A DNA stretch of 37,390 nucleotides from a virus, in the IMG/VR virus record IMGVR_UViG_3300009706_000028, positions 1 to 37,390 of that record, one strand, 5' to 3'. Position 1 is the first letter of the stretch, and each line of letters starts with the position of its first letter. The translations under genes and the position numbers were made by a program. Shown here one piece after another: positions 1 to 29,772 of the stretch. A model generated the notes under the pieces. That model worked only from the letters and a program-made list of their open reading frames with translations, was not told where the DNA came from and ran no database searches.

Positions 1-3000
1 GTCGTTATCAAATGTAACTTCAAATGTATCACCAATTTTTGTTGTTGGTGTTATTAGTGTTCCAACTATTGTTGGAACCGCTTGGCCTGTAATATTAACT
101 ATTGCTGTTGTTATCGAGCCGTCTATCCGTTCAATAATCTCAGGTTTTAATCCGCTATCAACTAATTTATGTACAGAGAATTCATTATTTGGGCCTCTTG
201 CAATATGTGCAGTTGAACCTACTGTTGGTTCAGTTGTTGCATTAACATTAGTATTTAAACCTGCTAATGTAGTATTGTCATATGCTCGATATGTAATATC
301 ATCTTTATGTACATATCCTGCAGTTGGTAATGCAGTTATTTCTGTAGTACCAATAGTATTCTTTGGCCAAACTTCCATTACTGGTGTTTTTGGCTTTCGT
401 AACCACCGCGTATCGTTTGTATGGTTAAGTTGTATAACATCGTCATTTAATGAATCAACCGATGTACTTTCATAAGTGAATTCAATCAATGGATTCTGTA
501 CCTTAACATCCGTTGCCTTAATTAATATTTCATTATCTGTGGTAATTCGTGTTGCACCAAAGTCACTTAGTTTAAGTGCAAACTCTTCATATAATGTAAG
601 TGCATCTTCATTAGTAATATTTGTATTACGAAGAAGACTTTTAATACTTTGGTTAGATCCTTTTTGTCGAATAAATCCTTTATAAAATTCATACGAAATA
701 TCATCATTGCCAGTAATGTTTGTTAAATAATCTCTTGGTTGATATCCTGTTAAATGTCTGGCCGAATCTCGTTGTGCTTTAGATACAACAGCATCAGTAG
801 TGTTATGAAATTTTCTATAATCATTAGCAACAGTATTAAAGTTTGGAAGAATAGTATCATTTTGAATAATATATCCACCAGACTCAACTTTACCGGTCCA
901 GTCATTTGTTTTAACAGCACTAAGTTTTAATTTTTCTTGGCGTAATCGAAACACTGGGTCATAAATTAAATCATTAAATCCTGTTTTGTTTTCAAAAAAC
1001 ATAACGTGTTCAGATTTGAACGTATTAACTTTTAATCCATAGATACCTATTCCAGATACTGTGCTAACTGAAAATGTATCTGCTTCTCTTTTAATATTTA
1101 AATTAGAAGCAGGAATATAGCCACCATTTTTATCAAGAATAGAATAAGTTCCATTAATAATTTCGTTGATGCTACTAATGCGTCCAAGTGATGTTGAATC
1201 TAATTTAATTTTATGTGCTGATGGACTTAATGCAATAAACGCTCCATCATCCCAGGTTGTTAATTGAGCCCAAAATATAAATTCTTTACCAGCGTGTTTC
1301 CAATCTAAAATAGTTTCTGCATCAATGTCCCACTCATCAAATATAAATCCAACCGCAGTTAAATATCGTTGATAACTAATTAAGAAATCAAACACCTCTT
1401 GTACATTGCTAAATTCAAATCCGTATTCAACTTCGGCAACTACATCATAATGTGTAGTATATTCTTCTACTCGAACTTCTTCAGTATCAACTGAATTGCT
1501 AGGGCCAGTAGTAACACTTGGTATAATTCTAAATACGGGATTAAATGGATCATATCCAAATACTTTATATCCCGTACTTGTAACTTCGATAATTACTCCA
1601 CTATATGATCTAACGCCTTCGCTGGCACTATTATAAATTGCAACAGATTTATCTTCTATTGGAATAAAAATACTATCCGAATCCCGTGTAGTGCTATACG
1701 AATCTGCTTGTATAGTAATGTTATTATTACTAATAAAGCCACCTGTTTTATAACCAAGATTTACTCCGGCTGTTTTTATGTCATTAGCAAAGCCAACATC
1801 ATAACTTATTCCTTGATCTAATAATAAATTATAAATCCATTGCTGATATCCAAAAACATATTCTTTTGTTGTGCTAGTATCAGTAAGTCCTAATTGATGA
1901 AATCTTAGTTCACTAATTTTCTTTCTTTTACTTGTATCCTCAAATAAAATTTGTGCCTTTTGTGCTTTGGCCCTTTTTAAATTTAATGTATCCCAATTCT
2001 TAGTTGCCCATTCTGCTGGGCGAGTTAAGAATGCTAATTTATTAATAATAAATGGCCATACAGGGTTTAATCTTATACTAAATTCTGCAGGCCCATAATC
2101 GCCGTTGCGCCATGGGTCATCTCTATGTGGGCCATATGGAACAGTATATCCTGATGCAGTAATTTGTACTGCTGGATCGCCAAAAATGCCTGATTGTACT
2201 GGATCTTTAAGTGTACCATATCCATCAACGGGAATATAATTACTTAAACCTGTTCGCTTAAATGGGTTATTAGTTAAGTAACTACTATCTGTAAAGTTTT
2301 CTCTAGCACCTGCTCTAATAATACCATTCTCTAAATCAGACCATAATGCAGTGTTGGTTTCAAGTGTAGTACCATATTGTGCATCCCACCACGATGGTTT
2401 AGAAGCAAAACCAAGCATCTCCCATGGGTGTGTATGTGGTCTATGTGTATCATAATAATACAAATAAATTCCACGCCATGCACCGGGTACTTCTTTGCCG
2501 TCTCTATCTGCTTCAGTAGCATAATTCCAAGTAAATGGTGAACTGCCATCATAGTCACGATGTGTAAATATATCAACTTTGTTTTCAACACTCCAACGTT
2601 GATATATTGGTTCCATTATTCTATTATATTCAAATAAACTATAATCATTATCTCTAAATTTGCCTGGAACATATTCGTATTGATTTAGTTCTGGCATATA
2701 ATCCTCAGAAATAAATTTGTCTGGAATAGCATTATAAATTCTTTTTTCAAGTTCTAATAAACAGTCATCCTTGTAATCACCATACATTAAAGTACGAGAT
2801 CCATCATGGCCGACTATAAAGTTTTTAGTGCCATTAAAATATGTATTATCACCTTCGGCTTTTGGACGATATACTTGATACATTCCCAACATACTTGGTG
2901 TTGACGGAACAAAAGAATTTTGTATATTTTCAAATTCTCGTATTTGAATTTTATCATCTTTTTGTACACCATCTGTAAAAATAATACGTGTAACTGTAGT

Positions 3001-6000
3001 ACCAGAACTAGTAATGGTTGTAGCAAATTTATAATCAGATACTTGATTTAGTAAACTATAATTAGTTTCAATATTATTCTTTTTGTATATGTAAATAATT
3101 TTTGTACGATCATTAACACCTGTGATTGATAACAATGATGATAAATCAATATGATCAGCATTAAATGGTACAGTTACATCTGTTTTTATAAAGTTATCTC
3201 CAAATGCAAATGCTTTTGTTTCTTGAAATACTTTTAAATTACTTCTTGTTGAATACATATCCAGTAGGATAGTATCTACAAATACATCTATAGGTGTAGT
3301 TAAATGCTTTGTTACTAAAAATTCTGCTCTTTGTAAAAATTTATTTTTAAAATTTACATATTGTCGTTGATTAAATCTTATCGAATCTAAAATATGAAAC
3401 GATTCATGATTAGCAAGTAACCCCATAAGAGGTAACATAGAACTTTCATGTTGTAGTATTTTTAATCCTAAACTCAAATCTTTTTTGCTGTCTCGATAAT
3501 TATTATTTCCATATGCAATACCAGAAAAATCAGATTGATTTTGAATAATCGATGTAAAATGTTCTTGTAGTTCACTCGAACTTGCAGAGGTTATATCATT
3601 ATTATCGGGATTTGCTTCCAATGAATCCGGAATTTCAAAATAATGTACATCATTGAGATTAACAGCATCTTTAGTAAATGATTTTACTTCAATTAATTGG
3701 TCTTTGCTTAATATTTTATTAGTTGTAAATGTTAATGTATTATCACTAATATTATAATCATATGCTGTCGATGTTGTTGATTGCTTTGCTAGATCACCGT
3801 CAACTGTAACTATTACATCTGCTGGACTATTTGTTACAGGTGTAGTTTGTAAAATATATTCTTGTGTACCGTCGACATCTGACTTGTATTTTTCAATAAC
3901 CCTTTGCTTATTAAATACATTAGTAGGATTCCAACTATTATTAAAATTATCAATTTTCCGTGTTTCAGGCGGAATTTTAAATTTAACTTCTGTCCAGCCA
4001 TCTGTTTGCCACGTCATATCTTTACCACTGTAAAGAATACCATCACTAATTGTTACATAATCACCATGATTGATTGTAGTTGTTAAGTTTAATAATACTC
4101 GGCTGATACCGTTTGAGGTATCAATATTAATTGTATAAATTCCTGTTTGGCCTTCAAGTAATGCTAAATCTACTTGCTCGGCCCACGCTATTTCGGCAGG
4201 CGTGTCATCATCCCATTCGTCAATATCCCACCTTGCTGAAGTATAATTTTCTGCGTTGTTGATTAAAATAATTTTTTTACCATCATATGATGCTATGTCA
4301 TCAAATTCTGCTATTTGACTTGATAAGTTTCCATGTATATTATTATAACTTAATGTATCTTCGACTAAATCAACATTTTCGATAAATGTTACATCACCAA
4401 TGTCTCTGTTTAAATTATATTGGTTATAATATTTGTAACCAAAAATGTCATATTTACTTGATGTTCCCCAGGTAGTTGTGTCTTCTAAATTATTTTGGAA
4501 AACAATATCAGCAACCTGGCCAAATTCTTTGTATTCTAATGCTTTACCTATAACCACATCAGCAGTACCGGTTGACATTTTATAACTAAAAATAGGGTTT
4601 CCTGTAAAATCACTACTCGGATATATGCCAATATCGTCTAACTTAATTGTATTTAAATCATATAATTGGAATAATGGCTCATCATTTTGTGCAGTCTTAC
4701 TTTGACTTAAAATCCAATCGGAGCCAGTCCAATGATATTCTAAACCTTTTCGTTCATCGCCCTCTGTAACAAGGATTTTTTGTTTTGTTAAAATACTTTT
4801 TATTTCTACAAGCGTACATACACCTGATGTTACTGTAGCCCTATAAATTTTTCCTAACTGATCGGCACCAGAGCCGGAATCGATATCCCATGGCTTTGAA
4901 TCCCATTGTCCTTCGGTTGCGCCCGAAGTTGCATTAACAATTTTCTCGCCGTCCCATTTAATAAAAGTTAACAAGTTAGTTGAATTTAAAAAGATAATTG
5001 TATCATCGGTTGCAATAGTAATTCCGTCAATTGTAACATTAGATGCATTATGAACAATGTCATATGTTTGATCGGCCGCAAAGTTTACAATGCCAGCACT
5101 TTCGATACCATAATTATATAGTTCTAGATCATTATCAAATTCAATAATTGGGCGAACGGCCTTACGAGCAGAATCTAATGCAAATTCTGTTGCTTTTTGT
5201 GTAACAGTTGAATCCCACGATACTTCGTCCCAGACATCGCCTGTTTTGTCCCATGGATTATCAACAATATCATTATATGTAACTCCGGTCGAAATACCAG
5301 TACCTCTTAATAATACATCTTTATGGTACCAACCATTTGTGCGACTCCATGGATTTGTATCTACAGCGCCTCGTTCAATAGTTATATAATCTATTTTATC
5401 AGTTATTAATGTTGGTGTATATGCCCGTGTATCATTAAGCACTGGTGATGTTATGTCTAGTAAATCGATACTTGTACCAACTCCTGTTACAATATAATCT
5501 TTATTAAGATATCCTTGTGGAGAAATATTACTACCAGTAAATCTAACTTTTAATCCATTAGTAAATTTTACCTCATTATATGATGTAAATGATGTTTTGC
5601 CAATTATATCAGATACAATATTAAGATTTGTACTGCCTTGTATAATATCAAATCTAATAAGTTCTGCTGGTTCGTACCAATAATAATTTTCATAGTTAAT
5701 AAATTTATCTATGTCAATTGGCGGTGCCCACGAATATGCTTTAGATTTAAATAATCTATTATGATTGTCAACATTGCTTCCTTCAACTGCTAATGTTTTA
5801 ATCGTATCATCATAAAACAATGCATTTGTAATTTCTGCTGTGTCAATATCTTTTGTTGTTAATACCGGTTCTAATTGATAGTTTTGTCTAGTATAATCAA
5901 TTTCTGGTAAGAAAAAATCTTGATCAGGTTTGAAAGATTTTGGATCTTTTCTTCCAATATAACCAGTTACTTTTGATGTGTTATCATCTGAAAACCATTG

Positions 6001-6081
6001 GTCAATTGTACTCTGGAAAAATTTATCCAGGGTATTAGTTTGCAGTATCTGTGGTAATTTTTTAAATGTTCTTTCTGTCAT
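1..6081 (-). CDS. Giant virion structural protein, 3' end outside window (baseplate wedge gp7-like by position)
   Basis: The minus strand is open without a stop from an ATG at 6079-6081 to the window edge, giving at least 2,027 codons; the C-terminus is missing. The start is 1 nt after the gp6 stop, so it is the next gene of the baseplate operon. The N-terminus reads MTERTFKKLPQILQT. The central part is Trp/Tyr-rich, with segments such as HTHPWEMLGFASKPSWW and repeated acidic-aromatic phrases (WDIDEWDDD, FDEWDID). I know such segments from very large 'virion structural proteins' of marine T4-like phages. I see no signal peptide, membrane segment or enzymatic motif. In T4 the gene after 6 is 7, the wedge initiator of about 1,000 residues, so a gp7 role is inferred from position only. 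It could also be a gp8/gp10-type or fibre-linked protein. Confidence 0.75.
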   Translation of the reverse strand, partial: MTERTFKKLPQILQTNTLDKFFQSTIDQWFSDDNTSKVTGYIGRKDPKSFKPDQDFFLPEIDYTRQNYQLEPVLTTKDIDTAEITNALFYDDTIKTLAVEGSNVDNHNRLFKSKAYSWAPPIDIDKFINYENYYWYEPAELIRFDIIQGSTNLNIVSDIIGKTSFTSYNEVKFTNGLKVRFTGSNISPQGYLNKDYIVTGVGTSIDLLDITSPVLNDTRAYTPTLITDKIDYITIERGAVDTNPWSRTNGWYHKDVLLRGTGISTGVTYNDIVDNPWDKTGDVWDEVSWDSTVTQKATEFALDSARKAVRPIIEFDNDLELYNYGIESAGIVNFAADQTYDIVHNASNVTIDGITIATDDTIIFLNSTNLLTFIKWDGEKIVNATSGATEGQWDSKPWDIDSGSGADQLGKIYRATVTSGVCTLVEIKSILTKQKILVTEGDERKGLEYHWTGSDWILSQSKTAQNDEPLFQLYDLNTIKLDDIGIYPSSDFTGNPIFSYKMSTGTADVVIGKALEYKEFGQVADIVFQNNLEDTTTWGTSSKYDIFGYKYYNQYNLNRDIGDVTFIENVDLVEDTLSYNNIHGNLSSQIAEFDDIASYDGKKIILINNAENYTSARWDIDEWDDDTPAEIAWAEQVDLALLEGQTGIYTINIDTSNGISRVLLNLTTTINHGDYVTISDGILYSGKDMTWQTDGWTEVKFKIPPETRKIDNFNNSWNPTNVFNKQRVIEKYKSDVDGTQEYILQTTPVTNSPADVIVTVDGDLAKQSTTSTAYDYNISDNTLTFTTNKILSKDQLIEVKSFTKDAVNLNDVHYFEIPDSLEANPDNNDITSASSSELQEHFTSIIQNQSDFSGIAYGNNNYRDSKKDLSLGLKILQHESSMLPLMGLLANHESFHILDSIRFNQRQYVNFKNKFLQRAEFLVTKHLTTPIDVFVDTILLDMYSTRSNLKVFQETKAFAFGDNFIKTDVTVPFNADHIDLSSLLSITGVNDRTKIIYIYKKNNIETNYSLLNQVSDYKFATTITSSGTTVTRIIFTDGVQKDDKIQIREFENIQNSFVPSTPSMLGMYQVYRPKAEGDNTYFNGTKNFIVGHDGSRTLMYGDYKDDCLLELEKRIYNAIPDKFISEDYMPELNQYEYVPGKFRDNDYSLFEYNRIMEPIYQRWSVENKVDIFTHRDYDGSSPFTWNYATEADRDGKEVPGAWRGIYLYYYDTHRPHTHPWEMLGFASKPSWWDAQYGTTLETNTALWSDLENGIIRAGARENFTDSSYLTNNPFKRTGLSNYIPVDGYGTLKDPVQSGIFGDPAVQITASGYTVPYGPHRDDPWRNGDYGPAEFSIRLNPVWPFIINKLAFLTRPAEWATKNWDTLNLKRAKAQKAQILFEDTSKRKKISELRFHQLGLTDTSTTKEYVFGYQQWIYNLLLDQGISYDVGFANDIKTAGVNLGYKTGGFISNNNITIQADSYSTTRDSDSIFIPIEDKSVAIYNSASEGVRSYSGVIIEVTSTGYKVFGYDPFNPVFRIIPSVTTGPSNSVDTEEVRVEEYTTHYDVVAEVEYGFEFSNVQEVFDFLISYQRYLTAVGFIFDEWDIDAETILDWKHAGKEFIFWAQLTTWDDGAFIALSPSAHKIKLDSTSLGRISSINEIINGTYSILDKNGGYIPASNLNIKREADTFSVSTVSGIGIYGLKVNTFKSEHVMFFENKTGFNDLIYDPVFRLRQEKLKLSAVKTNDWTGKVESGGYIIQNDTILPNFNTVANDYRKFHNTTDAVVSKAQRDSARHLTGYQPRDYLTNITGNDDISYEFYKGFIRQKGSNQSIKSLLRNTNITNEDALTLYEEFALKLSDFGATRITTDNEILIKATDVKVQNPLIEFTYESTSVDSLNDDVIQLNHTNDTRWLRKPKTPVMEVWPKNTIGTTEITALPTAGYVHKDDITYRAYDNTTLAGLNTNVNATTEPTVGSTAHIARGPNNEFSVHKLVDSGLKPEIIERIDGSITTAIVNITGQAVPTIVGTLITPTTKIGDTFEVTFDND

Positions 6082-6082
6082 A

Positions 6083-9000
6083 TTATCTAATCTTTAAATT
6101 CTGTTCTGTAAATCCTTTAACAACGTCGATATCAGTTACTTTTGCAACTGGTAAAAATAGTTCGTCAACTTCTGCTTTAACTTGGAATAGGTTACCAAAG
6201 TTACTTTCACTGTTTGTTGGCACTAATGCAACACTACTAATATTTGTTGGCATTGATTGATGTATAAATGCCGCAAGTTCTGTATAATAAAAACTCTCTC
6301 CCATGTCCCAATTATTAAGTAAAAAGAATCTATTAATTGCTTCAATAACTTGGCTCTTTACTTCGTTGTCACTTATGTCAGATCCAAGTGTTTTAATAAC
6401 TTTAAATGTTGCTTGTAGTTCGGTTATAGCCATTGAACCGAACAGTAATTTAAATTTCACTGGTCGGTAAATAATTTGATCACTAATACTTTTATAGTTA
6501 TTTAAATTATTAAACGAAATTGATAACTCAGTATTAGTTGGTGGAGCAGGAAATTCTACTAGTGTTTTATTATTTGCTTTCCACGAAAGAACGTTATCAT
6601 AATATGTTTTCGTTAATATAAAGATATCTATTAAGTTTGTTACGCTTGGATCAACTCGTTGATCGGTTGGAGCATAATGTTTCCATTGGAAGAATATTTT
6701 TTCTTCTGTGCTATTAGCAATTGTACTATCAGACGAATTAACTTTTGGTGTATTATATCCGCTTCTTCCAATAAATGCTGATAGTTTTAAAGTTCCATCA
6801 GTAGCATTTGTTAATGTAGTTAAACCATATGGCGTTACCGAAGCAATTTTCTTAAACACTTTTAAGTCTGTTCTGTAAATATATTTTCCAGCGTATGTAG
6901 AAGCATTTTGGATAATAACATTTTCTTCTGCTTGTGTATCTGCTTGTAGTACGTTTCGTGAAAGTTTATAATATGTATATCCGTCAAAGTCCGTATAAGT
7001 TTCTTCAAACAAATATCTTGCTACATCAACAAACTTGTCGAAACTTAAAGGATCATCTGGAATACCGTCGCCATCATTGTCGTGAAATGTAACTAATACT
7101 TTACGAGGATCTTGATAACCATCCGAATACGTTAACAATTTTGAAAGATTAAATTTAATATCTGTTTCTAAATTCTGATTTAATTTGATTACCGGTGTTC
7201 CTATTGTTGTTACCGGAGAATCTCCAGTTGGTGTTGAAAATGATACCGTTGTATCGCTAGTATAACCGTTACCTGGATCGGTAATTTCAACATGACTAAC
7301 AAATCCATCGATATTAATAGTGCTTGCACCAGTACCATTGGTTGTTTCGGCATATGAAATAAGTGGACGTCCTGTATAACCAAATCCAGGATCAATAATA
7401 TCAACTGATCTAATCGACCCGCTATTTGCAATTGTGCAAACTGGAGCAGGTGTCCAACCAGTGCCGCCGTTGTTTATTATTACAGCAGTAACCGCGCCGC
7501 CTGTTATTGTTACTGTGCCGGTGCCGTTGATCCCTGTATTTCCTGAGAACGCAACTGTTGCCGAAGTATATCCCGAGCCGCCGCCTGTTATTGTTATTGT
7601 ATCAATTATACCAGATGCATTTACAGTACACGTTGCAGTTGCTAATGTACCATCGCCCGAAATTGTTACCAAGGGCCGTGAATAATATCCGTTACCTGTG
7701 TTTCCTATTACAATACCGGTAACATTACCGGTAGCATTAACTGTTGCTGTTCCTGTAGTTGATGTGCCGCCAATTGGTGCTGTAGTAAATATTACCGTTG
7801 GAGGACTTCCTTGTGTATATCCTGAACCAGTATTAATCATTGTAACTGCTGTGATACTACTATTAAGTGTAGTTGCTCGTGCTTGTGCAATTGTTGAATA
7901 TCCGCCTCCAGTAAATGTAATAATTGCTGGTAGGTCGACACTAGTATAGCCCGAACCAGAATTAGTAACAGTTATACCGGTAACTGTACCTTCTTGGGTT
8001 GCGGTGGCTGTTGCTTGGCGCGATACACATGGTGCTGTGCCAGCAGGCGGCGCACCGATAGTTATTGTTGGAAGTGATTGATAACCACCGCCGCCAGTAA
8101 GGGGACTTGGTGAAAATGCAATGGATATAACTTTCCAATTAAGATCGAACGTTGCGCCGAGGCCACCTAATACTGGTACAGCAATTCCACCAGCAGTTGT
8201 GATATAATCACCACCTGCAAGCAATGTTGCGCCAGTAATTGCGCCGCCGCCGTCAACTGTATTAACTGTTATTGTTGCCGCTGTACCGCCAGTGAAGTCT
8301 CCACCACTTACAGTAAGAACATTACCTGCTGTATATCCTGCGCCGCCGTTGTTTATTGTTACTGGCGCACAGAGAGTTGGTGTACCTGTGTCATCACCTA
8401 CTGCCATATGTGCGACGCCAATGGCTTGTGTACCAAGTGCCGTGCCACATGAAATTGTTGCTTTACCAGCAGTTGGTGTAATCCAAGTTATTGTTAAGTT
8501 ATTATCGTCAACAAATGTAATTGTAGGAGCATCATAATGCCCTCTAATATTATAATATTTTGTTGCATCTGGACTTGCAAATCCTGCCATCAATAATGCA
8601 CTACCTAGTTTTGCAATATCAACGTTGACATGCTTTTTACCAAGATTGTGTGTTATGTTCCAAATTCCTGCTGGTGTCCCAGTAGTAAAATTAAATCCTG
8701 TGCCAGTTGCACCATTATTACCAAGGTTATGTGTTACAACAACATAACCGGCTTTGGTAACATTGGCTGGAAACTTGATTTTACATTGTGTGGTGCTAGT
8801 ATATTCAATAATCGGATGATCAAATCTGCCCTGGGCACTTATATCTGTCGAACCCTCAGTATAAACAACATCAATATTTGGATATTGTTCTCCTAAGTTA
8901 TGATTAATAATCCATTCATTAGTACTTAATTGTGCTGGGCTAACAAATTTTGACTTAATAATATCAATATAACCAATTGTATTTGAGTCCCATGTAACTT

Positions 9001-12000
9001 TTAAATTATTCTCATCAATAAATTCAACTGTCGGCTGCGAGTAAATATGATCAATTGCTAAATCATTCCCTCCTGATGTAACAATAATTTCATAATTAAC
9101 ATACTTTTGATTTAATCCATGATTTACATTCCAAACTGTACCTGAAAAACCAGGAGAATTAACCGTAACATCGGGTGTTGTAATATAGCCTCCGCCTTGG
9201 TCGGTTATTGTAGCGCCTGTTAATGCAGTGTCAATTGTTGCATATCCTAATGCAGTTATGCCGCCGCCGGCCGGAGCAGGAAATGCTATTGTAGGTAGTG
9301 ATGTATATCCTGCACCCGAAGCAAATAACTCAATTCCAATATCAGATATAGTATCATCTGCAATTGTTGGCAATGCTGTTGCTGACTCAGATAAATTTGC
9401 TTTTAATCTAAGAGAGCGGCCGCCGGTTGCAGTATTTAATACCCCGGAATTGTTAATCATAATTTCATTTTGAATACCGTTCGAATCAACTGTAACACTA
9501 TCTAAATAAGTTAGTGCAGGATCAATTGGTGCATATTCTGAACCGCCAATACCACCTGAAAGAAAGTTCCACGAAAGTTGTGCTACTGCGGTGGCCGGAT
9601 CAATTTCGCCAGGCTGTTGAAATTCAACAACAGGTGATGATGTATAACCATTACCCGGTGTTAAAATATTAATTCTATCAATTTGTGATCGTTTATCACT
9701 ATTAATTTTTAAAAGAGAAATTACATCTCTTTTTGCTTGTCCTGTTTTTACATCAACTGTTTTAAATGCATTGTCAAAATAGAATCTAACGTCTTCTTCA
9801 CTTTCAAAAATATAACGCATTCCTCTTGTTGATAAAGAAAAGTTTGCACTAGTAAGTGATGTTGCTTCAACGTATTCTATTTTAATAATCCAACTATCAT
9901 CTTTATTGGTATTAGTGTTATCTTGTGCATTAACTAAACTAAATTCTGTTGCTGTAGATAAGTTATTAGGATTGATTACATAAAATGCTGAAGTTTTATA
10001 ATCATAACCAATACCAAATGTGTTTTTAAGATCAAGTTGTGTAAAAATTGCTGTTTGTTCGGTGGTGTTAAATAATTTTCGAAATTTTGGATAAACCCGT
10101 GTTAAAATATATCCATCTGGTATAGAAACATTTAATTCAATCGGTCCAGTTGTTAATCCTGTTGGATTTCCTGATACAGTTAAATTTTCAACTGTAGCAA
10201 ATAATGTTAAAGACCTTGCAGAGTTTTGAAATTCTAGTAATGATTTCTCAACAATAAATTTATTTTTTCCTGTGCCGCTTGTACCTACAGTTTGATAATT
10301 AGTTGCAATACTTGCTACGTCTTGTTTTACAAAATACCCTTTATTACCGTCGGTTGACGATGGTAAAGTAACCCATTGCATAACTTCACTGGTAGTGAAT
10401 CGCCATGCTGAACTGCCATCGGCTGTGTGTACTGCTTTTCGATAAACATCATAATAAAAATTAATAACGTCGTCCTCTGATAATTGAGGTTGAACATATC
10501 TTTGAATAATAGTATTAGATGTTGTTGAAGATGTAAGTTCAGCAACAACTTGAATGTTCTGTTCGTCTTTGTAAATAAACCCATCTTCGGCAAATACATT
10601 TAAATTTTGTACAGTGCCGGTTGGATCATTAATGTCAATAAACCTACTATGCCCTGCGTGTGTTCTATTAATGGCTTTGATTTTAATAATGTCTGAATTC
10701 TTATATAATGGATATGTGTTATAATCCTCACCATTAACCATTCGATCCTGTGTATAAAATACTTGAGGAGCATTTGTTTTAATTTCAGCATTTGTTTCAG
10801 TTGCTAAACTATTGCTAATACTTCCAACAAGTCCAAGTGTTATGCTTAAGATATGAGTGGTATTGTTTTTACCTATGTAAGGTACTTGAATTGTTTGTAA
10901 ACCAATATCTTCTGGACGGGCCGTTGTTGTCAGGTTTGCACTTTGCCTATACCATACTCGTGTAGTTCCTGACGGTGCATCGCCAAATGAGCCATCTGCA
11001 AATCGTAATGATATTTTATCATTAACAGCCGACGTAACTGCAAAAATCTTTCTTTTATTTTTAAGTAAACTATTATAAACTACACTAGTACCATTTACGC
11101 TAGGTACTTTAGTCCAACTATCAAGTATAGTACCGGTTGAATCAACAGTTTGACACCAAACATCAAAATTATTAATATTCTCTTTATTAATAAAGATTTC
11201 TCTATTTGGTTGTGGCAGATCTAATGCAAAATCATCGAATGATAATGCACCTTGTTTTAGGTACATAAAGAATCCAGTTTGACTACTGTTATTACCTAAG
11301 CCATCATTGATGTAAAACATACTTAATCCATTTGCAGGATTTGGTTCTATTTCTTTCATAAACATGCCGTCTTCGAATGTAGCATTAACTACTTCGAACG
11401 GAAAACTTGCACCGTTAACATCCCCATTTAAAGAATAAGTAACTGCTAGATTTTTAATAGCATCAATAGTATATACTTCAATTGGAACAGCATCTACAGT
11501 ACCTTTTTTAACTGGAGTACCATATGGGTTTTGTGCTAGGAATGCCGCATTAAGTATTAATGTTAATTGTTCTAAATAATCAACATTATTTGGATCATTC
11601 CAATTTATTACTAAATTTGATAAATCATTTCCTGCACTATCAATAATTTGTTCGTCGGTTGATACAGCGAAAATCTTTATGACGCCGGCCGCTGGAAGAT
11701 TTCTCTTTGGAGTATAATTTAACATTTTTGCTAAACGTCGAATACTTTCGGTGCGTTCAGCAGTATCTAAAAAGTTTTCTCTAGTATTTAAGTCTTGTCT
11801 AAATGCAATTGTTTGGCCCATATATGCAAGTAGTTCAATGATAGCAATAAATTCACTGCTTTCGATAAAGTCATTAAATTCTTCTGGAAAATGCCGTTGT
11901 AAATATTCAATCATCGCACGTTTAATCGTATCAAAATCATATGCAGTAAAGTTAATTTCACTGAATGTTCGATAAATTGTTCTAAAATCTTCTGCGGCGA

Positions 12001-12031
12001 AAAAGTTATTTTGTCGTTGTATTTGGGCCAT
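6083..12031 (-). CDS. gp6: Baseplate wedge protein gp6-like, greatly enlarged (1,982 aa)
   Basis: In contractile tails gp6 (baseplate J family) forms the inner ring of the wedge. The first ~130 residues look like a gp6 N-terminus: an aromatic/acidic start, then FIAIIELLAYMGQTIAFRQD and LDTAERTESIRRLAKMLNY. The last ~250 residues are again typical, with LTKTYYDNVLSWK and a closing domain containing INRFFLLNNWDMGESFYYTEL. T4 gp6 is about 660 aa; this one is three times larger because of a glycine-rich insertion at roughly residues 790-1610. The insertion holds about a dozen copies of a GxGYTSxPxV-type repeat and three copies of a WNIxHNLG-type domain. The ATG lies 3 nt after the gp25 stop, with GGAG just upstream inside the gp25 end, so the two are probably translationally coupled. 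Family assignment is firm; the insertion's role is unknown. Confidence 0.9.
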   Translation of the reverse strand: MAQIQRQNNFFAAEDFRTIYRTFSEINFTAYDFDTIKRAMIEYLQRHFPEEFNDFIESSEFIAIIELLAYMGQTIAFRQDLNTRENFLDTAERTESIRRLAKMLNYTPKRNLPAAGVIKIFAVSTDEQIIDSAGNDLSNLVINWNDPNNVDYLEQLTLILNAAFLAQNPYGTPVKKGTVDAVPIEVYTIDAIKNLAVTYSLNGDVNGASFPFEVVNATFEDGMFMKEIEPNPANGLSMFYINDGLGNNSSQTGFFMYLKQGALSFDDFALDLPQPNREIFINKENINNFDVWCQTVDSTGTILDSWTKVPSVNGTSVVYNSLLKNKRKIFAVTSAVNDKISLRFADGSFGDAPSGTTRVWYRQSANLTTTARPEDIGLQTIQVPYIGKNNTTHILSITLGLVGSISNSLATETNAEIKTNAPQVFYTQDRMVNGEDYNTYPLYKNSDIIKIKAINRTHAGHSRFIDINDPTGTVQNLNVFAEDGFIYKDEQNIQVVAELTSSTTSNTIIQRYVQPQLSEDDVINFYYDVYRKAVHTADGSSAWRFTTSEVMQWVTLPSSTDGNKGYFVKQDVASIATNYQTVGTSGTGKNKFIVEKSLLEFQNSARSLTLFATVENLTVSGNPTGLTTGPIELNVSIPDGYILTRVYPKFRKLFNTTEQTAIFTQLDLKNTFGIGYDYKTSAFYVINPNNLSTATEFSLVNAQDNTNTNKDDSWIIKIEYVEATSLTSANFSLSTRGMRYIFESEEDVRFYFDNAFKTVDVKTGQAKRDVISLLKINSDKRSQIDRINILTPGNGYTSSPVVEFQQPGEIDPATAVAQLSWNFLSGGIGGSEYAPIDPALTYLDSVTVDSNGIQNEIMINNSGVLNTATGGRSLRLKANLSESATALPTIADDTISDIGIELFASGAGYTSLPTIAFPAPAGGGITALGYATIDTALTGATITDQGGGYITTPDVTVNSPGFSGTVWNVNHGLNQKYVNYEIIVTSGGNDLAIDHIYSQPTVEFIDENNLKVTWDSNTIGYIDIIKSKFVSPAQLSTNEWIINHNLGEQYPNIDVVYTEGSTDISAQGRFDHPIIEYTSTTQCKIKFPANVTKAGYVVVTHNLGNNGATGTGFNFTTGTPAGIWNITHNLGKKHVNVDIAKLGSALLMAGFASPDATKYYNIRGHYDAPTITFVDDNNLTITWITPTAGKATISCGTALGTQAIGVAHMAVGDDTGTPTLCAPVTINNGGAGYTAGNVLTVSGGDFTGGTAATITVNTVDGGGAITGATLLAGGDYITTAGGIAVPVLGGLGATFDLNWKVISIAFSPSPLTGGGGYQSLPTITIGAPPAGTAPCVSRQATATATQEGTVTGITVTNSGSGYTSVDLPAIITFTGGGYSTIAQARATTLNSSITAVTMINTGSGYTQGSPPTVIFTTAPIGGTSTTGTATVNATGNVTGIVIGNTGNGYYSRPLVTISGDGTLATATCTVNASGIIDTITITGGGSGYTSATVAFSGNTGINGTGTVTITGGAVTAVIINNGGTGWTPAPVCTIANSGSIRSVDIIDPGFGYTGRPLISYAETTNGTGASTINIDGFVSHVEITDPGNGYTSDTTVSFSTPTGDSPVTTIGTPVIKLNQNLETDIKFNLSKLLTYSDGYQDPRKVLVTFHDNDGDGIPDDPLSFDKFVDVARYLFEETYTDFDGYTYYKLSRNVLQADTQAEENVIIQNASTYAGKYIYRTDLKVFKKIASVTPYGLTTLTNATDGTLKLSAFIGRSGYNTPKVNSSDSTIANSTEEKIFFQWKHYAPTDQRVDPSVTNLIDIFILTKTYYDNVLSWKANNKTLVEFPAPPTNTELSISFNNLNNYKSISDQIIYRPVKFKLLFGSMAITELQATFKVIKTLGSDISDNEVKSQVIEAINRFFLLNNWDMGESFYYTELAAFIHQSMPTNISSVALVPTNSESNFGNLFQVKAEVDELFLPVAKVTDIDVVKGFTEQNLKIR
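7200..9650 (-). repeat. Protein-level repeat array inside gp6 (GxGYT repeats and HNLG domains)
   Basis: Translated in the gp6 frame, this stretch contains many diverged copies of a unit built as GNGYTSxPxVxF followed by a Gly/Ala/Thr-rich strand and an IxIxxxGxGY return. Examples are GAGYTSLPTIAF, GGGYQSLPTITI, GNGYYSRPLVTI and GFGYTGRPLISY. About 8480-9150 interrupts the array with three related domains beginning WNVNHGLNQKYVN, WIINHNLGEQYPN and WNITHNLGKKHVN. At DNA level the units are diverged, but the stretch is richer in GCC/GCG runs than its surroundings. Such repeats are common in marine phage tail proteins and are presumably beta-structured surface decorations (inference). Confidence 0.8.
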
Positions 12032-23268: not shown

Positions 23269-24300
23269 ATGTTAAAAGCATTTTTTAGAAGTAAACAATG
23301 GGCCTTATGGGCCTGGGGCGGAGGTGGTTTACTTGCTATCTCTTTATGGATACAAGTACAGATAACAGTAGCCATAAACAAGTGGTATGGCGGCTTTTAT
23401 GATTTACTACAAACATCAGGAACATATAAAGATAATTCAGCAGAAGGTATTGCGTTATTTTACGATAAGTTAATTAGTCTTTCTTATTGGACTAATGGCT
23501 TCGAAGGTGACCCATCTTTTGTTGTGTTAGCATTCCCTTATGTTGTATTAGCAGTACTAACAGGTTGGTTTACTCGTGTATATGGACTGCGATGGCGCGA
23601 AGCAATAACGTTTAATTACATACCGCGTTGGCGTACAGTTAAGGAAGAAATAGAAGGCGCATCCCAGCGTATTCAAGAAGACTGTAATCGGTTTGCGCGA
23701 ATTGTAGAGTCATTGGGTTTACAAGTTGTTAGAGCTATTATGACATTAGTAGCATTTATTCCAGTATTATGGGGTTTAAGTAGTGCTGTTGAAATCCCAT
23801 TCTTTAGTGAAATACCTGGGTCATTAGTTTGGGTAGCTCTCACGGTATCATTGGGTGGTTTAATAATCTCATGGTTTGTAGGTTGGAAATTACCAGGACT
23901 TGAATACAATAATCAGAGAGTAGAAGCGGCGTTTAGAAAAGATTTAGTACTTGGCGAAGATGATAAAGCCAACTACGCACAGCCCGAAACTATATTAAGT
24001 TTGTTTACAGGAATAAAATTTAACTATCATAGGCTGTATTTACATTATGGTTATTTTGATACATGGATGATTATGTATGACCAATTTATGGTCATTGTTC
24101 CATACTTAATAATCGGTCCAGGTTTGTTTACTGGCGCAATATTGTTAGGTGTGGTAGTACAAGTTAGTAATGCGTTTAGTAAAGTACATGGTGGATTTGC
24201 ATTATTCTTACATAATTGGACTACAATAACTGAACTTCGTAGCATATGGAAACGTTTGCACGAATTCGAAAAAAATCTCGATAAGTACGCAATTGCTTAA
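23269..24300 (+). CDS. sbmA: SbmA/BacA-family peptide transporter
   Basis: SbmA/BacA proteins are inner-membrane, proton-driven importers of peptides, microcins and some antibiotics. The middle shows the family core: WRTVKEEIEGASQRIQED, IMTLVAFIPVLWGLS, KLPGLEYNNQRVEAAFRKD, LVLGEDD, and a C-terminal SKVHGGFALFLHNWTTITEL followed by LRSIWKRLHEFE. E. coli SbmA (406 aa) aligns from its third membrane segment (VNAWYAPFYDL against INKWYGGFYDL). This 343-residue protein therefore lacks about two N-terminal helices and keeps five or six hydrophobic segments. Its ATG follows gp46 by 8 nt with AGGAGG upstream, so it is the last gene of the gp55 operon, and a hairpin follows. A host-derived origin is likely; function in infection is unknown. 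Confidence 0.92.
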   Translation: MLKAFFRSKQWALWAWGGGGLLAISLWIQVQITVAINKWYGGFYDLLQTSGTYKDNSAEGIALFYDKLISLSYWTNGFEGDPSFVVLAFPYVVLAVLTGWFTRVYGLRWREAITFNYIPRWRTVKEEIEGASQRIQEDCNRFARIVESLGLQVVRAIMTLVAFIPVLWGLSSAVEIPFFSEIPGSLVWVALTVSLGGLIISWFVGWKLPGLEYNNQRVEAAFRKDLVLGEDDKANYAQPETILSLFTGIKFNYHRLYLHYGYFDTWMIMYDQFMVIVPYLIIGPGLFTGAILLGVVVQVSNAFSKVHGGFALFLHNWTTITELRSIWKRLHEFEKNLDKYAIA

Positions 24301-24309
24301 TTAGAGAGG

Positions 24310-24329
24310 AGAGGGGCAAATACCCCTCT
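24310..24329 (+). terminator. Hairpin after the SbmA-like gene, possible terminator or RNA processing signal
   Basis: AGAGGGG (24310-24316) and CCCCTCT (24323-24329) form a perfect 7-bp stem with loop CAAATA, starting 10 nt after the transporter stop. There is no U-tract downstream, so termination would be weak. It may instead stabilise the mRNA end or separate the transporter from the enzyme cassette. Confidence 0.5.
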
Positions 24330-24353
24330 TCAACTGTAAGGTAAATATTAGTA

Positions 24354-25253
24354 ATGAAGTATTTTGAAACAGAACCAGAAGATAATATTTTTACTGCATT
24401 AGTTGCAGATCTCACCCACCGTTGTAATATGGAATGTGCCAATTGTTATATCCCTAATCGTGCATTTCCTGATATGGACGCTAACAAATTATATTCATTT
24501 TTAGAACGTTTACCTAATAGAATATATGTTAGACTTATTGGTGCAGAACCAACAATGCGTGAAGATTTATTTGATATTATTCGTAATATTAAAAAGATTG
24601 GGCATAAGTGCAGTCTAACAACCAATGGGTTAAAATTAGGGCATAGAGATTATGTTAAGGAAATTAAAAATGCTGGCCTGCGCCTTATTTTAATTTCAAT
24701 GAATGGCGCCGGCGATGATGATGTTTATAAAATTATTGATAGTGGAAAATATGCAAATTTAAAAATTAGAGCACTTCGTAATTGTATGTTAGAAAATATG
24801 ATTATTAATACAGGAACTATTATTGCAAAAGGTATTAATGAACATACAATCGATGATCAAGTTAATTTGTTTTTTAATATAATGGAAGAAACAAATTATA
24901 AACCAAGAGTCAAACCTATATTACGTTTTAAAAGTGTTGGCAAAATTGGCAGGCATATGGATGGAGATACTACATATAATATTAATGAACTTATTGATCT
25001 TTTTAAACAAAAATTTGATATACAGCCTTCGGATCAACCAGTACAAAATAGTGGTAGGACATCTGTTGATGGAACCTATGGATTAATTGGAACTATATAT
25101 GAATATAACAATGTTCTAATACGTTTTGTTGATTGGGAAGTTGACGATGACGGTGTAGTTGATTCAGGTAGTGAATATAGAGGACGTATTACTAAAGATT
25201 GGAAATGTGCTCCATTTTTTGAAAATATAAAGTTAAACGAATATGGATATTAA
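24354..25253 (+). CDS. Radical SAM enzyme, MoaA/PqqE-like core
   Basis: The 299-residue protein has the radical SAM cluster motif C24-x3-C28-x2-C31 (LTHRCNMECANCY), which binds a [4Fe-4S] cluster that cleaves S-adenosylmethionine to start radical chemistry. The GGEP-type SAM-binding motif is present as LIGAEPTMREDL, and a CSLTTNGLKLG strand follows. The C-terminus has no cysteine-rich SPASM domain; only one Cys remains (DWKCAPFFENIKLNE). Substrate cannot be predicted. It opens a tightly packed cassette: its stop overlaps the next start by 11 nt. The Shine-Dalgarno is weak (AAGG about 12 nt upstream). I recall similar proteins in other phages but no defined role. Confidence 0.85.
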   Translation: MKYFETEPEDNIFTALVADLTHRCNMECANCYIPNRAFPDMDANKLYSFLERLPNRIYVRLIGAEPTMREDLFDIIRNIKKIGHKCSLTTNGLKLGHRDYVKEIKNAGLRLILISMNGAGDDDVYKIIDSGKYANLKIRALRNCMLENMIINTGTIIAKGINEHTIDDQVNLFFNIMEETNYKPRVKPILRFKSVGKIGRHMDGDTTYNINELIDLFKQKFDIQPSDQPVQNSGRTSVDGTYGLIGTIYEYNNVLIRFVDWEVDDDGVVDSGSEYRGRITKDWKCAPFFENIKLNEYGY

Positions 25254-26505: not shown

Positions 26506-27333
26506 ATGATTAGTGATCTCGAAGTATTTGATTATTTTAAACAAGGATTACATGAAGAAGTTTTAACTCATCCAATTATCAAACGCAACAGATATCTATG
26601 GTGGTTTTCTCAGAACACAGATTTAGATAAAGAAGACATTATCTACTTTGCAAAACAATTTTCTGTTTTTTCAAATCAATTTATTATTGCACAATTACTA
26701 AAAACACTCAATTCAAATAGTCTCGAACAAATGCGAGATGCTAAAGAAATATTAGTAAATGAATTAGGAGTTGTATTTAAGTCTGAAAATAAAGTAAATG
26801 CAACTGAAATCGATCCCGAAGTAGTTGGTGTAGAAGGTACCGTTGATGGCGGCACATTTAGATTTAAGGCCGCACATTTTGAATGGCTTTTATTTTTTGT
26901 AAAGCCGCTTGGATTAACATTTAATGATATTGGTAAACGTAAACATGCTGATCCAGCAACACTTTTCTTTTGTGATGAGTTAATTAGAATCTACGGTAGT
27001 GATGATTTTAGTACTGCCGCTGGCGCTAGTTTTGCTGTTGAAAATTGGGCAAATGCCGGTTTTTGGAAACAGTTAATTCAAGGATTGGAATGTTATAGTA
27101 AAGAATCTGGAATACAATTAAACTTAGGATTCTTTAAATGGCATGATGCATTAGAAGCACAACACGCACAACACACATGGGATGAGTTAGAAGATTTGTT
27201 TCTTAATAATAAAGACTTCGACCAGGATAAATTTATTCGTGGGGCACTAGAAATGCTCGACGGTGTTCAAGCATTTTGGGAAGGGTTAGATCAGCACAGG
27301 ATTACAAGGTACTGGCGCGATACCAGAGGTTAA
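26506..27333 (+). CDS. Heme-oxygenase-like diiron oxidase/oxygenase (HDO)
   Basis: This 275-residue helical protein carries the six-ligand set of the HDO superfamily: E86 (VNELG), H124 (AAHFEWLLFF), E179 (VENWANAGFW) and H213-x3-E217-x2-H220 (HDALEAQH). The final H-x3-D/E-x2-H spacing is that of CADD-type enzymes. HDO enzymes bind two irons and activate O2 to oxidise amines, fatty acids or amino acids (UndA, SznF and CADD are known members). About 35 residues are inserted between the first Glu and His. The family also includes metal-free PqqC/TenA relatives, but the intact ligands argue against those. It ends convergently with the nuclease gene: the two stop codons overlap in TTAA. Confidence 0.8.
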   Translation: MISDLEVFDYFKQGLHEEVLTHPIIKRNRYLWWFSQNTDLDKEDIIYFAKQFSVFSNQFIIAQLLKTLNSNSLEQMRDAKEILVNELGVVFKSENKVNATEIDPEVVGVEGTVDGGTFRFKAAHFEWLLFFVKPLGLTFNDIGKRKHADPATLFFCDELIRIYGSDDFSTAAGASFAVENWANAGFWKQLIQGLECYSKESGIQLNLGFFKWHDALEAQHAQHTWDELEDLFLNNKDFDQDKFIRGALEMLDGVQAFWEGLDQHRITRYWRDTRG

Positions 27334-27833
27334 TCTTTTTGTGAGTATTCTTTAACATTCTCTTTATTATCAGAAAAGAATTTATCAAATTCACAAAAAT
27401 ACCAACTTTTGTATGTGATGCCACGGTTAGTAACCATATGATGTTTAAGTTCATACATTACATATTTGCCTTTGCGATTAAACTTCATAATAATTAAATT
27501 AAAGTCGCCTTCGTCGGCGGCATCGTATGTCTGTTGTATCCAAGTGTTTAGAATTGGAATTTCTTTATTTTGAAACAACTGATGAAACGGAAAATCCGCG
27601 TATGCTTTACATTCAACGTTCAAATGTCCCCAATTGTCTGGCGGAATGATATCACTTTTGAATCCTCTAATTTGATTCTCTGATAAGTGTTCTTTACGAA
27701 CAGCATTTTGTCCACCAACGTATGCACCACTTTGTGGTACTCTTGTAAAACTATCCTCGTATAATTCAGACAAGTAATTTGCTATGTCTCTTTCAAAAGT
27801 TTTACCTTTGTCTTTAGATTTTTTTCCTGACAT
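27330..27833 (-). CDS. PD-(D/E)XK nuclease, Holliday-junction-resolvase-like
   Basis: The 167-residue protein has the order of conserved residues of Hjc-like PD-(D/E)XK nucleases: E14 in KGKTFERDIANYL, a basic loop (TRVPQSGAYVGG), D61 in KSDIIPP and E74-x-K76 in VECKAYADFPFHQL. Such enzymes cut branched DNA or junctions, which would suit resolution of recombination intermediates before packaging, or degradation of host DNA. It is transcribed opposite to its neighbours, from a near-consensus promoter about 50 nt upstream, with AAAGGAAAA before the ATG at 27833. No helicase or methylase partner is adjacent. Confidence 0.78.
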   Translation of the reverse strand: MSGKKSKDKGKTFERDIANYLSELYEDSFTRVPQSGAYVGGQNAVRKEHLSENQIRGFKSDIIPPDNWGHLNVECKAYADFPFHQLFQNKEIPILNTWIQQTYDAADEGDFNLIIMKFNRKGKYVMYELKHHMVTNRGITYKSWYFCEFDKFFSDNKENVKEYSQKD

Positions 27834-27860
27834 TTATTTTCCTTTTTTTGTAGAAACCGG

Positions 27861-27889
27861 TTGACAACGTTCTCTACTTTGTGTATTAT
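27861..27889 (+). promoter_or_regulatory. Sigma70-type promoter upstream of the candidate ncRNA
   Basis: TTGACA (27861-27866), 17 nt, TATTAT (27884-27889): a perfect -35, optimal spacing and a good -10, with predicted start near 27896. No gene-length reading frame follows on the plus strand for nearly 2 kb, so the expected product is an RNA. The -35 overlaps the palindrome AACCGGTT (27855-27862), a possible operator. Confidence 0.78.
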
Positions 27890-27913
27890 ATAGTCAATGG
27901 TACAAAAAGTCAA
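27885..27913 (-). promoter_or_regulatory. Sigma70-type promoter of the PD-(D/E)XK nuclease gene
   Basis: On the minus strand TTGACT (27913-27908), 17 nt and TATAAT (27890-27885) face the nuclease gene, with a start near 27878 and a leader of about 45 nt. Its -10 occupies almost the same bases as the -10 of the plus-strand promoter, so the two promoters should compete. Confidence 0.72.
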
Positions 27914-28360
27914 ATGAAATTATCAAACATCAGGCGCAGTAGGCACACGGCACACTTGGCACACAAACGCGGCAAAAACAAAATCAGGCTTCGCAAAATT
28001 AAACTTTCTAATAAAACTATTAATGGCACACTAGGCAACATTTAGGCATTACATAGCAACCTTAATGGTGTTAAGAGCACCCGCATCGAGGCTGTTTTTT
28101 ACGGTCGGATTTTGCGAAGACGTAATTACGTTGTTGCAGGGAAAACGCTAACCTAAGGCTAGAACGATTACGGCTCTGAGAAAAAAGCAACCGTATACTT
28201 TAGTAGATGTTGTCAGTAAGCATCACTAAAGTTCCGTTGGTATAGAAGACTGAGGTAGGGAGTACCGGCTAACCGCTTCCGCAAAACAATCCTCTTTATT
28301 GAATGGTGAAATACTCGAATGATGACACCTCATACTTCTCCCGCAAGGGAGAAGTATGGC
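27896..28360 (+). ncRNA. Candidate large structured noncoding RNA, undescribed
   Basis: This is the largest gap without a gene (27834-28463). It starts at a near-consensus promoter and has no convincing reading frame. An 11-bp perfect long-range pairing joins CTTCGCAAAAT (27989-27999) with ATTTTGCGAAG (28109-28119). A 12-bp hairpin with one bulge lies at 28197-28232, and GGTG/CACC and GGTA/TACC stems lie around 28067-28081 and 28254-28266. A perfect 12-bp stem capped by a GCAA tetraloop lies at 28331-28358. GGCACAC occurs four times near the 5' end. The features suit a multi-domain RNA of about 460 nt. I could not match it to tmRNA, RNase P, SRP, 6S or a group I intron. A GOLLD- or ROOL-type phage RNA is possible but unproven. 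The 3' end is a guess. Confidence 0.55.
28331..28358. other. Perfect 12-bp hairpin with GCAA tetraloop
   Basis: CATACTTCTCCC (28331-28342) pairs fully with GGGAGAAGTATG (28347-28358) around GCAA, a GNRA loop typical of structured RNAs. GAATGAT occurs on both sides (28317-28323 and about 28369). No U-tract follows on the plus strand, so it looks like an RNA domain rather than an intrinsic terminator. Confidence 0.75.
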
Positions 28361-28432
28361 AAAAATCTGAATGATAACAAGTAATCTTATTAAGAAGTAA
28401 AAGAAAGTTTGAATAGAATGAAAAACTTTTAC

Positions 28433-28450
28433 AATGCCTGTTAAGGCATT
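28433..28450 (-). terminator. Probable terminator of the gp26 operon
   Basis: AATGCC and GGCATT form a 6-bp stem around a 6-nt loop, 13 nt past the stop of the small membrane protein gene. On the minus strand a run of five T occurs shortly after. It may also end the plus-strand RNA, but no U-tract follows in that direction. Confidence 0.45.
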
Positions 28451-28463
28451 CCTAAAGTGAATA

Positions 28464-28670: not shown

Positions 28671-28903
28671 AATAATGCTATACCGGATTCTTTAGTACGT
28701 TCTATATTTTGTTCAATTAAATCCATAATCATACTTCGATCGTCTATACTTAATTGCCAGGCTTGTTCGATAGTAATACTACCTCTCATATACCAGCAGA
28801 TTTCAAGTACTTGCTTTTTTAAGGCTCTAGTTTCTGTTGCAAGATCATTTAGATAGTCGGAAATCTCTTCTTGAGACCCGACTAGGAGCCTATATCGAAA
28901 AAA
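28667..28903 (-). CDS. Frameshift-encoded C-terminal extension of the gp26-like protein
   Basis: In the -1 frame relative to the upstream gp26-like gene, an open frame runs from a TAA 12 nt before the slippery site to TGA at 28667-28669. It has no ATG, GTG or TTG until its middle, so it cannot be translated as a whole by normal initiation. After slippage at F291-F292 it adds 76 residues, giving a 368-residue fusion. The extension includes ETRALKKQVLEICWYMRGSI and WQLSIDDRSMIMDLIEQNIE, similar to small coiled proteins I recall from tail-assembly loci of marine T4-like phages. The arrangement parallels the G/GT tail assembly chaperones beside the tape measure of lambda-like phages. An internal ATG start (WYMRG) is the alternative. 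Confidence 0.75.
   Translation of the reverse strand, partial: FFRYRLLVGSQEEISDYLNDLATETRALKKQVLEICWYMRGSITIEQAWQLSIDDRSMIMDLIEQNIERTKESGIALL
28854..28903 (-). promoter_or_regulatory. Programmed -1 frameshift signal: slippery heptamer plus hairpin
   Basis: On the minus strand T-TTT-TTC (28903-28897) is in phase as an X-XXY-YYZ heptamer, 12 nt before the zero-frame TAG. Twelve nucleotides downstream, starting at that stop, TAGTCGG pairs with CCGACTA and, after a TT bulge, GTCTC pairs with GAGAT (one G-U) around AAGAA: a 12-bp hairpin at 28884-28854. Both tRNAs can re-pair in the -1 frame. The heptamer falls in the only window (about 30 nt) between the -1-frame stop upstream and the zero-frame stop. 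Confidence 0.8.
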
Positions 28904-29772
28904 CTTGCTGGATTAAATTCTATTTTTTGATTATAAGAATGTTCGCATTCCGGGCATACAAGTTTCCACTCTCTAGCGATGCCTTTGTCATTTACACTAT
29001 TTGCTTCGTTCATGATTAGATCGGCTTCTTGTTTTCCAATGCCTTGTACCCATGCTAAAATATGTTTTTTATTAGTAACTTCAGTTTCTTCGGTTGCTTC
29101 GCCCTCTTCATCTTCGGTACTAGGTATAATAACTTTAATAATAGAATTGGCCAAGATTACAATATTCAAATCTGCCATTGCTTGAAAACTTTTATTAAAT
29201 ACCTTTAATTTTTCAAAGTCATCAATTTTCTTTTCTTCATCAGATGTTAATCTATTAAGTTCGGTAGTTTCACGGAATGCTTGAAGAGCAGCCATTTGAC
29301 TATCTTTATATGTATATGGCCGAATATAAACAGTTAAACCATTATCTAGATTAACTATATATTCGTCATCTAGTTCTTCAACAGTTTCTAAAATAGCCTC
29401 GATATTAACATCATAATCATGCTTGTGCTCACATTCAGGACACTCAGAACCAATTGGTAAATCTTGCCCGTATGTTGCATATCTCGATGCAAGTAAAATT
29501 ACATCAACATCATTTGATGATAAGTTATAAACATCTTGAATTCCTGTTACACTACGAATAACTGAAACTAAACTTTCACCGTTTAGCAATGCATCAGGAT
29601 TACGAAGCATGGTTTCGTCTTTTGCAGTCATCGGAAAAATAGGAATTTCGTCAGTAATTTGACTTTGTGTGTCCAGTTCTGAAAATTTACCTCGACTTGG
29701 TAAAGATACATATAATTTTGGAACTCTAAGAAATCCGTCCAATGGATTAATATTTTTTACGTTAGTAGTCAT
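28882..29772 (-). CDS. gp26: gp26-family baseplate hub/tail assembly protein
   Basis: The 296-residue protein matches the T4 baseplate gp26-type family: a proline-rich start (FLRVPKLYVSLPSRGKF), then DEIPIFPMTAKDETMLRNPD and LLNGESLVSVIRS. It has two CPEC pairs about 160 residues apart (SECPECEHKH; LVCPECEHSY) that probably bind one zinc ion. In T4, gp26 acts in hub assembly with gp51. GGAGG lies 9 nt before the ATG. It is divergent from the tape-measure gene and its last codons hold a -1 frameshift site, so it probably yields a short and a long form, as tail assembly chaperones do. Confidence 0.82.
   Translation of the reverse strand: MTTNVKNINPLDGFLRVPKLYVSLPSRGKFSELDTQSQITDEIPIFPMTAKDETMLRNPDALLNGESLVSVIRSVTGIQDVYNLSSNDVDVILLASRYATYGQDLPIGSECPECEHKHDYDVNIEAILETVEELDDEYIVNLDNGLTVYIRPYTYKDSQMAALQAFRETTELNRLTSDEEKKIDDFEKLKVFNKSFQAMADLNIVILANSIIKVIIPSTEDEEGEATEETEVTNKKHILAWVQGIGKQEADLIMNEANSVNDKGIAREWKLVCPECEHSYNQKIEFNPASFFDIGS

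Follow-up and report, generated by a model that had tools for sequence, protein, structure and literature searches.

A predicted structured noncoding RNA in a gene-free gap beside the baseplate-hub gene of jumbo T4-like phages

What does a phage encode in 630 bp that hold no gene? The question is raised by a 37390-base IMG/VR record (hereafter the window, meaning the whole stretch that was analysed), which was found to be a fragment of a jumbo T4-like phage carrying portal, baseplate, SbcC-like and resolvase genes, with relatives that include PA5oct, Phosso, Atu_ph07, CBB and GAP32. The gap (27834-28463) lies between a PDDEXK/RusA-like Holliday junction resolvase gene (27330-27833, minus strand) on one side and, on the other, a 68-aa frame and the T4 baseplate hub protein gene (28882-29772, minus strand; PF12322), which served as the anchor of conserved synteny. 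Elsewhere, the window contains two giant frames back to back on the minus strand (1-12031), one of 2027 aa that is cut by the left end of the window and one of 1982 aa. The plus-strand stretch 23269-25253 holds a gene for an SbmA/BacA-like peptide transporter (PF05992, E 4e-117; NCBIfam PRK12369) and, next to it, a radical SAM gene (PF04055) in second place; these two are unusual phage cargo, possibly with a peptide- or cofactor-related role.

A first-pass annotation had proposed that the gap encodes a promoter-driven structured noncoding RNA, had named an Rfam covariance search and a covariation test on aligned homologues as checks, and had named a conserved small reading frame spanning the stems as evidence against the proposal. 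We consider it about 90% probable, from comparative sequence analysis, that the gap is a plus-strand gene for a structured noncoding RNA of ~550 nt. The gap was confirmed to be without a gene: the longest reading frame in it (27881-28045) encodes 54 aa, and the stems are not covered by any longer one. The structured RNA itself was supported by a covariance model trained without the window that nevertheless matched it, by covariation, and by more than 100 homologues, all of which are described below.

Searches with the resolvase and hub proteins led to ~200 loci, and the gap between the two genes was found to be conserved in ~45 contigs. By sequence, the window gap matched those of several relatives (L155, L195, L186, L164, L189, L112 and the L013 group; E down to 6e-18). 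When phage records were searched directly with the gap by blastn, chance hits only were returned. An iterated profile collected 110 distinct sequences; because its 5' end strays into the resolvase gene, the structural analysis was limited to the core of this profile. Additionally, a 23-base pattern applied blind to genomic context found at least 120 IMG/VR stretches, and 75 of the 80 pattern-found loci examined matched the window RNA by nhmmer. Wherever one of these 80 loci contains the hub gene, the RNA runs on the strand opposite to it, in 48 cases within 3 kb. A second class of contigs (L022-L048) carries a highly conserved form of ~550 nt in the same direction as the hub gene. An initial attempt to align the window to this class was unsuccessful, and the link of the class to the family rests on the iterated profile and a common PK1 motif (see below).

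The covariation analysis started from an alignment of 12 relatives (A7) with 30 stated pairs, in which 98.6% of the pair cells were standard and half of the pairs (15/30) had changed on both sides. The covariation score was 0.341, compared with at most 0.130 when the pairs were slid, and shuffled controls were also far lower. A covariance model of the P_a, P_b and P_d core (R1), built from 12 relatives with the window excluded from training, matched the window at 28168-28326 on the plus strand with 39.6 bits (E 9e-9); R1 alone overlooks most of the diverged members. We also applied a tree-aware null of our own, which is R-scape-like but is not R-scape itself, and this test returned significant canonical pairs. 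In particular, 72 environmental relatives yielded six significant pairs (89-100% canonical), of which P_a, P_g, P_d and the GNRA hairpin account for four and an accessory hairpin, absent from the window, for two. The enterobacterial isolate copies yielded five, all 100% canonical; alignment A9, with too few sequences (n=14), gave none. Sequence conservation was found to track the helices, with indels of any length between members. The prediction is supported by compensatory changes for two hairpins, helix P_d, one pseudoknot and the GNRA hairpin, and by a partner-swap test for another pseudoknot.

The 5' leader contains the four GGCACAC repeats seen in the first pass (27942-27948, 27949-27955, 27958-27964 and 28025-28031, plus strand). 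Repeats of the form [AT]GGCA[CT] were enriched at the same place in 23 sequences including the window, with 54 occurrences against a shuffled mean of 7.9 (maximum 15 in 200 shuffles). An 11-bp long-range pairing had also been proposed across 27989-28119 on the plus strand. The complementarity is perfect, as CTTCGCAAAAT (27989-27999) exactly reverse-complements ATTTTGCGAAG (28109-28119), but its conservation was not confirmed when it was looked for in the relatives, and this pairing may be due to chance.

The core begins with hairpin P_a (28169-28195), in which 28169-28173 pairs with 28191-28195 around the conserved loop GCUCUGAGAAAAARGCAA. In A7, both partners vary in four of its six pairs, and pair 28170-28194 was significant under the tree-aware null. 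Hairpin P_b (28198-28231) corresponds to the bulged hairpin of the first-pass annotation and proved to be conserved across the family; in A7, seven of its ten pairs show changes in both partners. The first pseudoknot, PK1 (28236-28273), joins 28236-28240 (GUUGG) to 28269-28273 (CUAAC); in relatives the corresponding segments read GUUGA/UCAAC, GUAAC/GUUAC, GUUGU/ACAAC, GUCAU/AUGAC and GUUGC/GCAAC. Over 25 sequences including isolates, the four counted PK1 pairs were 97% paired, with a covariation score of 0.613 against 0.197 for shuffled and at most 0.239 for slid controls. In the window PK1 interleaves with helix P_d (28258-28280), which joins 28258-28262 (GGGAG) to 28276-28280 (CUUCC). P_d was 100% paired across variants such as GAGAG/CUUUC, ACUGG/CCAGU, AGGGG/CCUCU and others, and pair 28258-28280 was significant. 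Both PK1 and P_d were 100% paired in 15 isolate copies.

Helix P_g (28252-28294) joins 28252-28255 (GAGG) to 28291-28294 (CCUC). It was 73% paired, and one register off, in a first alignment, and became significant in a larger one, where pair 28252-28294 occurs as AU 31, UA 29 and GC 4 times (tree-aware null). The second pseudoknot, PK2 (28214-28301), was revealed by two A7 column pairs (48-142 and 49-140) that were significant under the tree-aware null in 12 sequences, and its 3' partner site sits after P_g. In 23 sequences, pairing with the own partner was stronger than with swapped partners (0 of 20000 permutations). The window pairing of the P_b loop at 28214-28219 (CAGUAA) with 28296-28301 (UUAUUG) was read by eye, as the swap-test script chose another, longer pairing in the window. 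Downstream lies a perfect 12-bp hairpin with a GNRA (GCAA) loop (28331-28358) followed by a conserved UAUGRC. This hairpin, also noted in the first pass, was found family-wide with compensatory changes, including a significant covarying pair near the loop (tree-aware null); the chance expectation for its 20-base core pattern in the window is 0.00. As evident from these comparisons, the predicted core of P_a, P_b, P_d, P_g, two pseudoknots and the GNRA hairpin is homologous across jumbo T4-like phages.

The folding z-score was better for the minus strand of the window (-3.3) than for the plus strand (-1.9), and proved a misleading guide to the strand. We nevertheless prefer the plus strand, because the conserved G-U pairs would become A-C if the minus strand were the RNA, the loops read GNRA on the plus strand, and the promoters of isolates point along the RNA strand. 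The matching gaps of relatives all lie on the strand that corresponds to the window plus strand.

Upstream of the RNA, the predicted promoter TTGACA-N17-TATTAT (27861-27889, plus strand) was present as described in the first pass, with TTGACA at 27861-27866, TATTAT at 27884-27889 and 11 of 12 consensus matches. A second, sigma-70-like site with 11 of 12 matches, TTGACT-N17-TATAAT (27885-27913, minus strand), faces the opposite way, so that the two form a divergent, overlapping pair; the minus-strand promoter probably serves the resolvase gene. TTGACA-N17-TATAAT likewise occurs upstream of the RNA in two relatives (L079 and L062). Environmental relatives do not in general carry the sigma-70 consensus, which occurred in 13/97 in sense compared with 7/97 in antisense. 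From the promoter position, the gap limits, the last hairpin and the homologues on the plus strand, we infer that the RNA extends from about 27897 to 28452. The last hairpin (AAUGCCU/AGGCAUU, 28433-28450, plus strand) has similar 3' counterparts in relatives and is likely the RNA end; no U-tract follows it, and no intrinsic terminator was found on the plus strand of the window.

Isolated phages revealed a further property of the family. With a second model, R2, we found five copies in each of the whole genomes of CBB, GAP32, pEa_SNUABM_47, Munch and XaC1, four each in 121Q and Sharanji (recorded host E. coli K-12 MG1655), and three in K64-1. Since R2 was built partly from isolate copies, its scores are not independent, and the number and place of the hits are the informative part. 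All copies within an isolate genome share one strand. Environmental contigs of 302-347 kb showed one copy each, a count that diverged paralogues could escape. In CBB the hub-side gap spans 786 gene-free bp, flanked by endonuclease VII and the hub operon, and its sequence recurs elsewhere in the CBB genome and in relatives; the four other CBB copies occupy gene-free gaps of 661-738 bp among unrelated genes. The other copies in 121Q are likewise surrounded by unrelated genes. Overall, comparative analysis showed that the predicted RNA gene lies beside the hub gene on the opposite strand in most phages, with three to five dispersed copies in Enterobacteria and Xanthomonas phages. PA5oct, Phosso and SCTP-2 gave no match with R2. 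Gaps were observed at the same syntenic place in PA5oct (L049, 2668-4180) and MIJ3 (L052, 2249-3762), of 1.5 kb each, and in Phosso (L051, 2760-3773), of 1 kb. In PA5oct the gap contains UUAUGAC directly after a GNRA hairpin like that of the family, and is a candidate member that the models did not match.

A second promoter class with a TGAAACG -35 element and a TATA -10 box has been described in CBB (PMC5259590). Scanning CBB for TGRRAC...TATAAT returned 28 matches, all on the plus strand. A match stood immediately upstream of four of the five CBB RNAs and a GCTATAAT variant before the fifth; the match at 32923 is not the copy 1 promoter, being situated downstream of the copy 1 core.

Granted a structured RNA, we think it probable that the molecule acts in trans, as a structured RNA or RNP. 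This reading fits best because the neighbours differ between copies, and it is favoured over a leader or antisense role by the two-pseudoknot core, the isolates' own promoters and the copies beside unrelated genes. The RNA would be transcribed from its own promoter, which in the CBB group would belong to the phage TGRRAC...TATAAT class, and would fold into a stable multi-domain particle. Most likely it would serve as a scaffold or decoy that binds a protein of the host or the phage, or another copy of itself, with the 5' GGCACAC repeats as a putative binding array, and extra gene copies would raise the RNA dosage.

The best-surviving alternative is that the RNA forms an R-loop or primer at replication origins, in the manner of T4 origins or ColE1 RNA II, the copies marking several origins and the structure governing hybrid formation. 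Each CBB copy has a dedicated phage promoter and a predicted noncoding transcript unit, and T4 provides a parallel in ori(uvsY), near gene 26, presumably a relative of the hub gene. The CBB copies lie at 32.7, 94.6, 174.8, 258.5 and 336.7 kb, with similar positions in GAP32, pEa_SNUABM_47 and Munch, and their fairly even spacing has a smallest-gap probability of 0.003-0.005 in each genome, although these positions are homologous across the four genomes and amount to nearly one observation. However, the spacing is unremarkable in XaC1, 121Q and K64-1, a GC-skew switch is absent from every CBB copy, most lineages show a single copy (including the environmental contigs of 302-347 kb), and an R-loop does not require conserved pseudoknots. 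We regard an origin RNA as unlikely.

More doubtful still is regulation in cis, by which an antisense or convergent transcript would control the small ORF and the baseplate-hub gene next to it. The opposite orientation in every pattern-found locus holding both RNA and hub gene agrees with such a role, yet the orientation is reversed in the second class of contigs, the extra CBB and 121Q copies adjoin unrelated genes, and the covarying structure is confined to the gap and does not run across the hub gene. The compact pseudoknotted core, with a size like that of a regulatory fold, could also suit a leader RNA or riboswitch for a downstream gene. This reading is very improbable and largely refuted, since no downstream gene is conserved: in most contigs, as in the window, the gene that comes next has the opposite orientation, and the CBB copies precede different genes. 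Short hypothetical proteins are annotated across the gap in some records, but the idea that it holds short frames or unannotated genes, or is spurious, is refuted by covariation and has a negligible chance of being correct, given that no window frame exceeds 54 aa and conservation follows helices with indels of any length.

Returning to a trans-acting RNA, the copy numbers invite a bolder view, which we offer tentatively: a multi-copy RNA system unprecedented in phages, in which a pseudoknotted RNA of ~550 nt would be needed by large genomes, as an RNP, an RNA-only particle or marks of replication start. Here most jumbo T4-like phages would have one copy and others three to five same-strand copies, dispersed over the genome and each under a promoter of the phage's own. 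The five-copy expansion together with dedicated promoters suggests selection on dose or position.

How does this RNA compare with known systems? A search of Rfam 15 (4227 families), as proposed in the first pass, revealed no credible match in the whole window, in the gap region up to E 5 or in relatives; the covariance models without a match include those of group I and group II introns. The first-pass annotation could not match motifs to GOLLD or ROOL, in agreement with their covariance models, which had no match at the gathering score in the window and the loci of 15 relatives, or up to E 5 in the region. ARAGORN found no tRNA or tmRNA in the window and 14 relatives. T4 origin transcripts and ColE1 RNA II are noncoding phage or plasmid transcripts, and ColE1 RNA II is structured and similar in length to the new RNA, but no origin signature was found at the latter. 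A description of the family was not found in the literature searched, which took in a minority of subscription papers and no preprints, and a term search of the CBB paper (PMC5259590) revealed no mention of noncoding RNA; the family appears previously uncatalogued, although an earlier description may exist.

OLE RNA is similarly large and ornate; however, it is a cellular RNA of extremophilic Gram-positive bacteria and its model did not match. GOLLD is characterised by a rise in expression at phage lysis. It shares with the new RNA its large size, phage origin, unknown function and a 3' part that is better conserved than the variable 5' part (PMC12286853), but it often exceeds 800 nt, has a different core and gave no covariance-model match. 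ROOL is similar in its length of ~600 nt, elaborate multi-pseudoknot fold, phage or prophage origin and unknown function (PMC12286853). In contrast to ROOL, the new RNA has no match to the ROOL covariance model, the window lacks a tRNA gene, and the family has so far been found in jumbo T4-like phages, with several dispersed copies in some genomes. A homo-octameric RNA cage is characteristic of ROOL. Widespread in jumbo phages and matching no Rfam family, it stands beside GOLLD and ROOL, which are likewise without known function, and the coliphages that carry four copies make its function testable in the laboratory.
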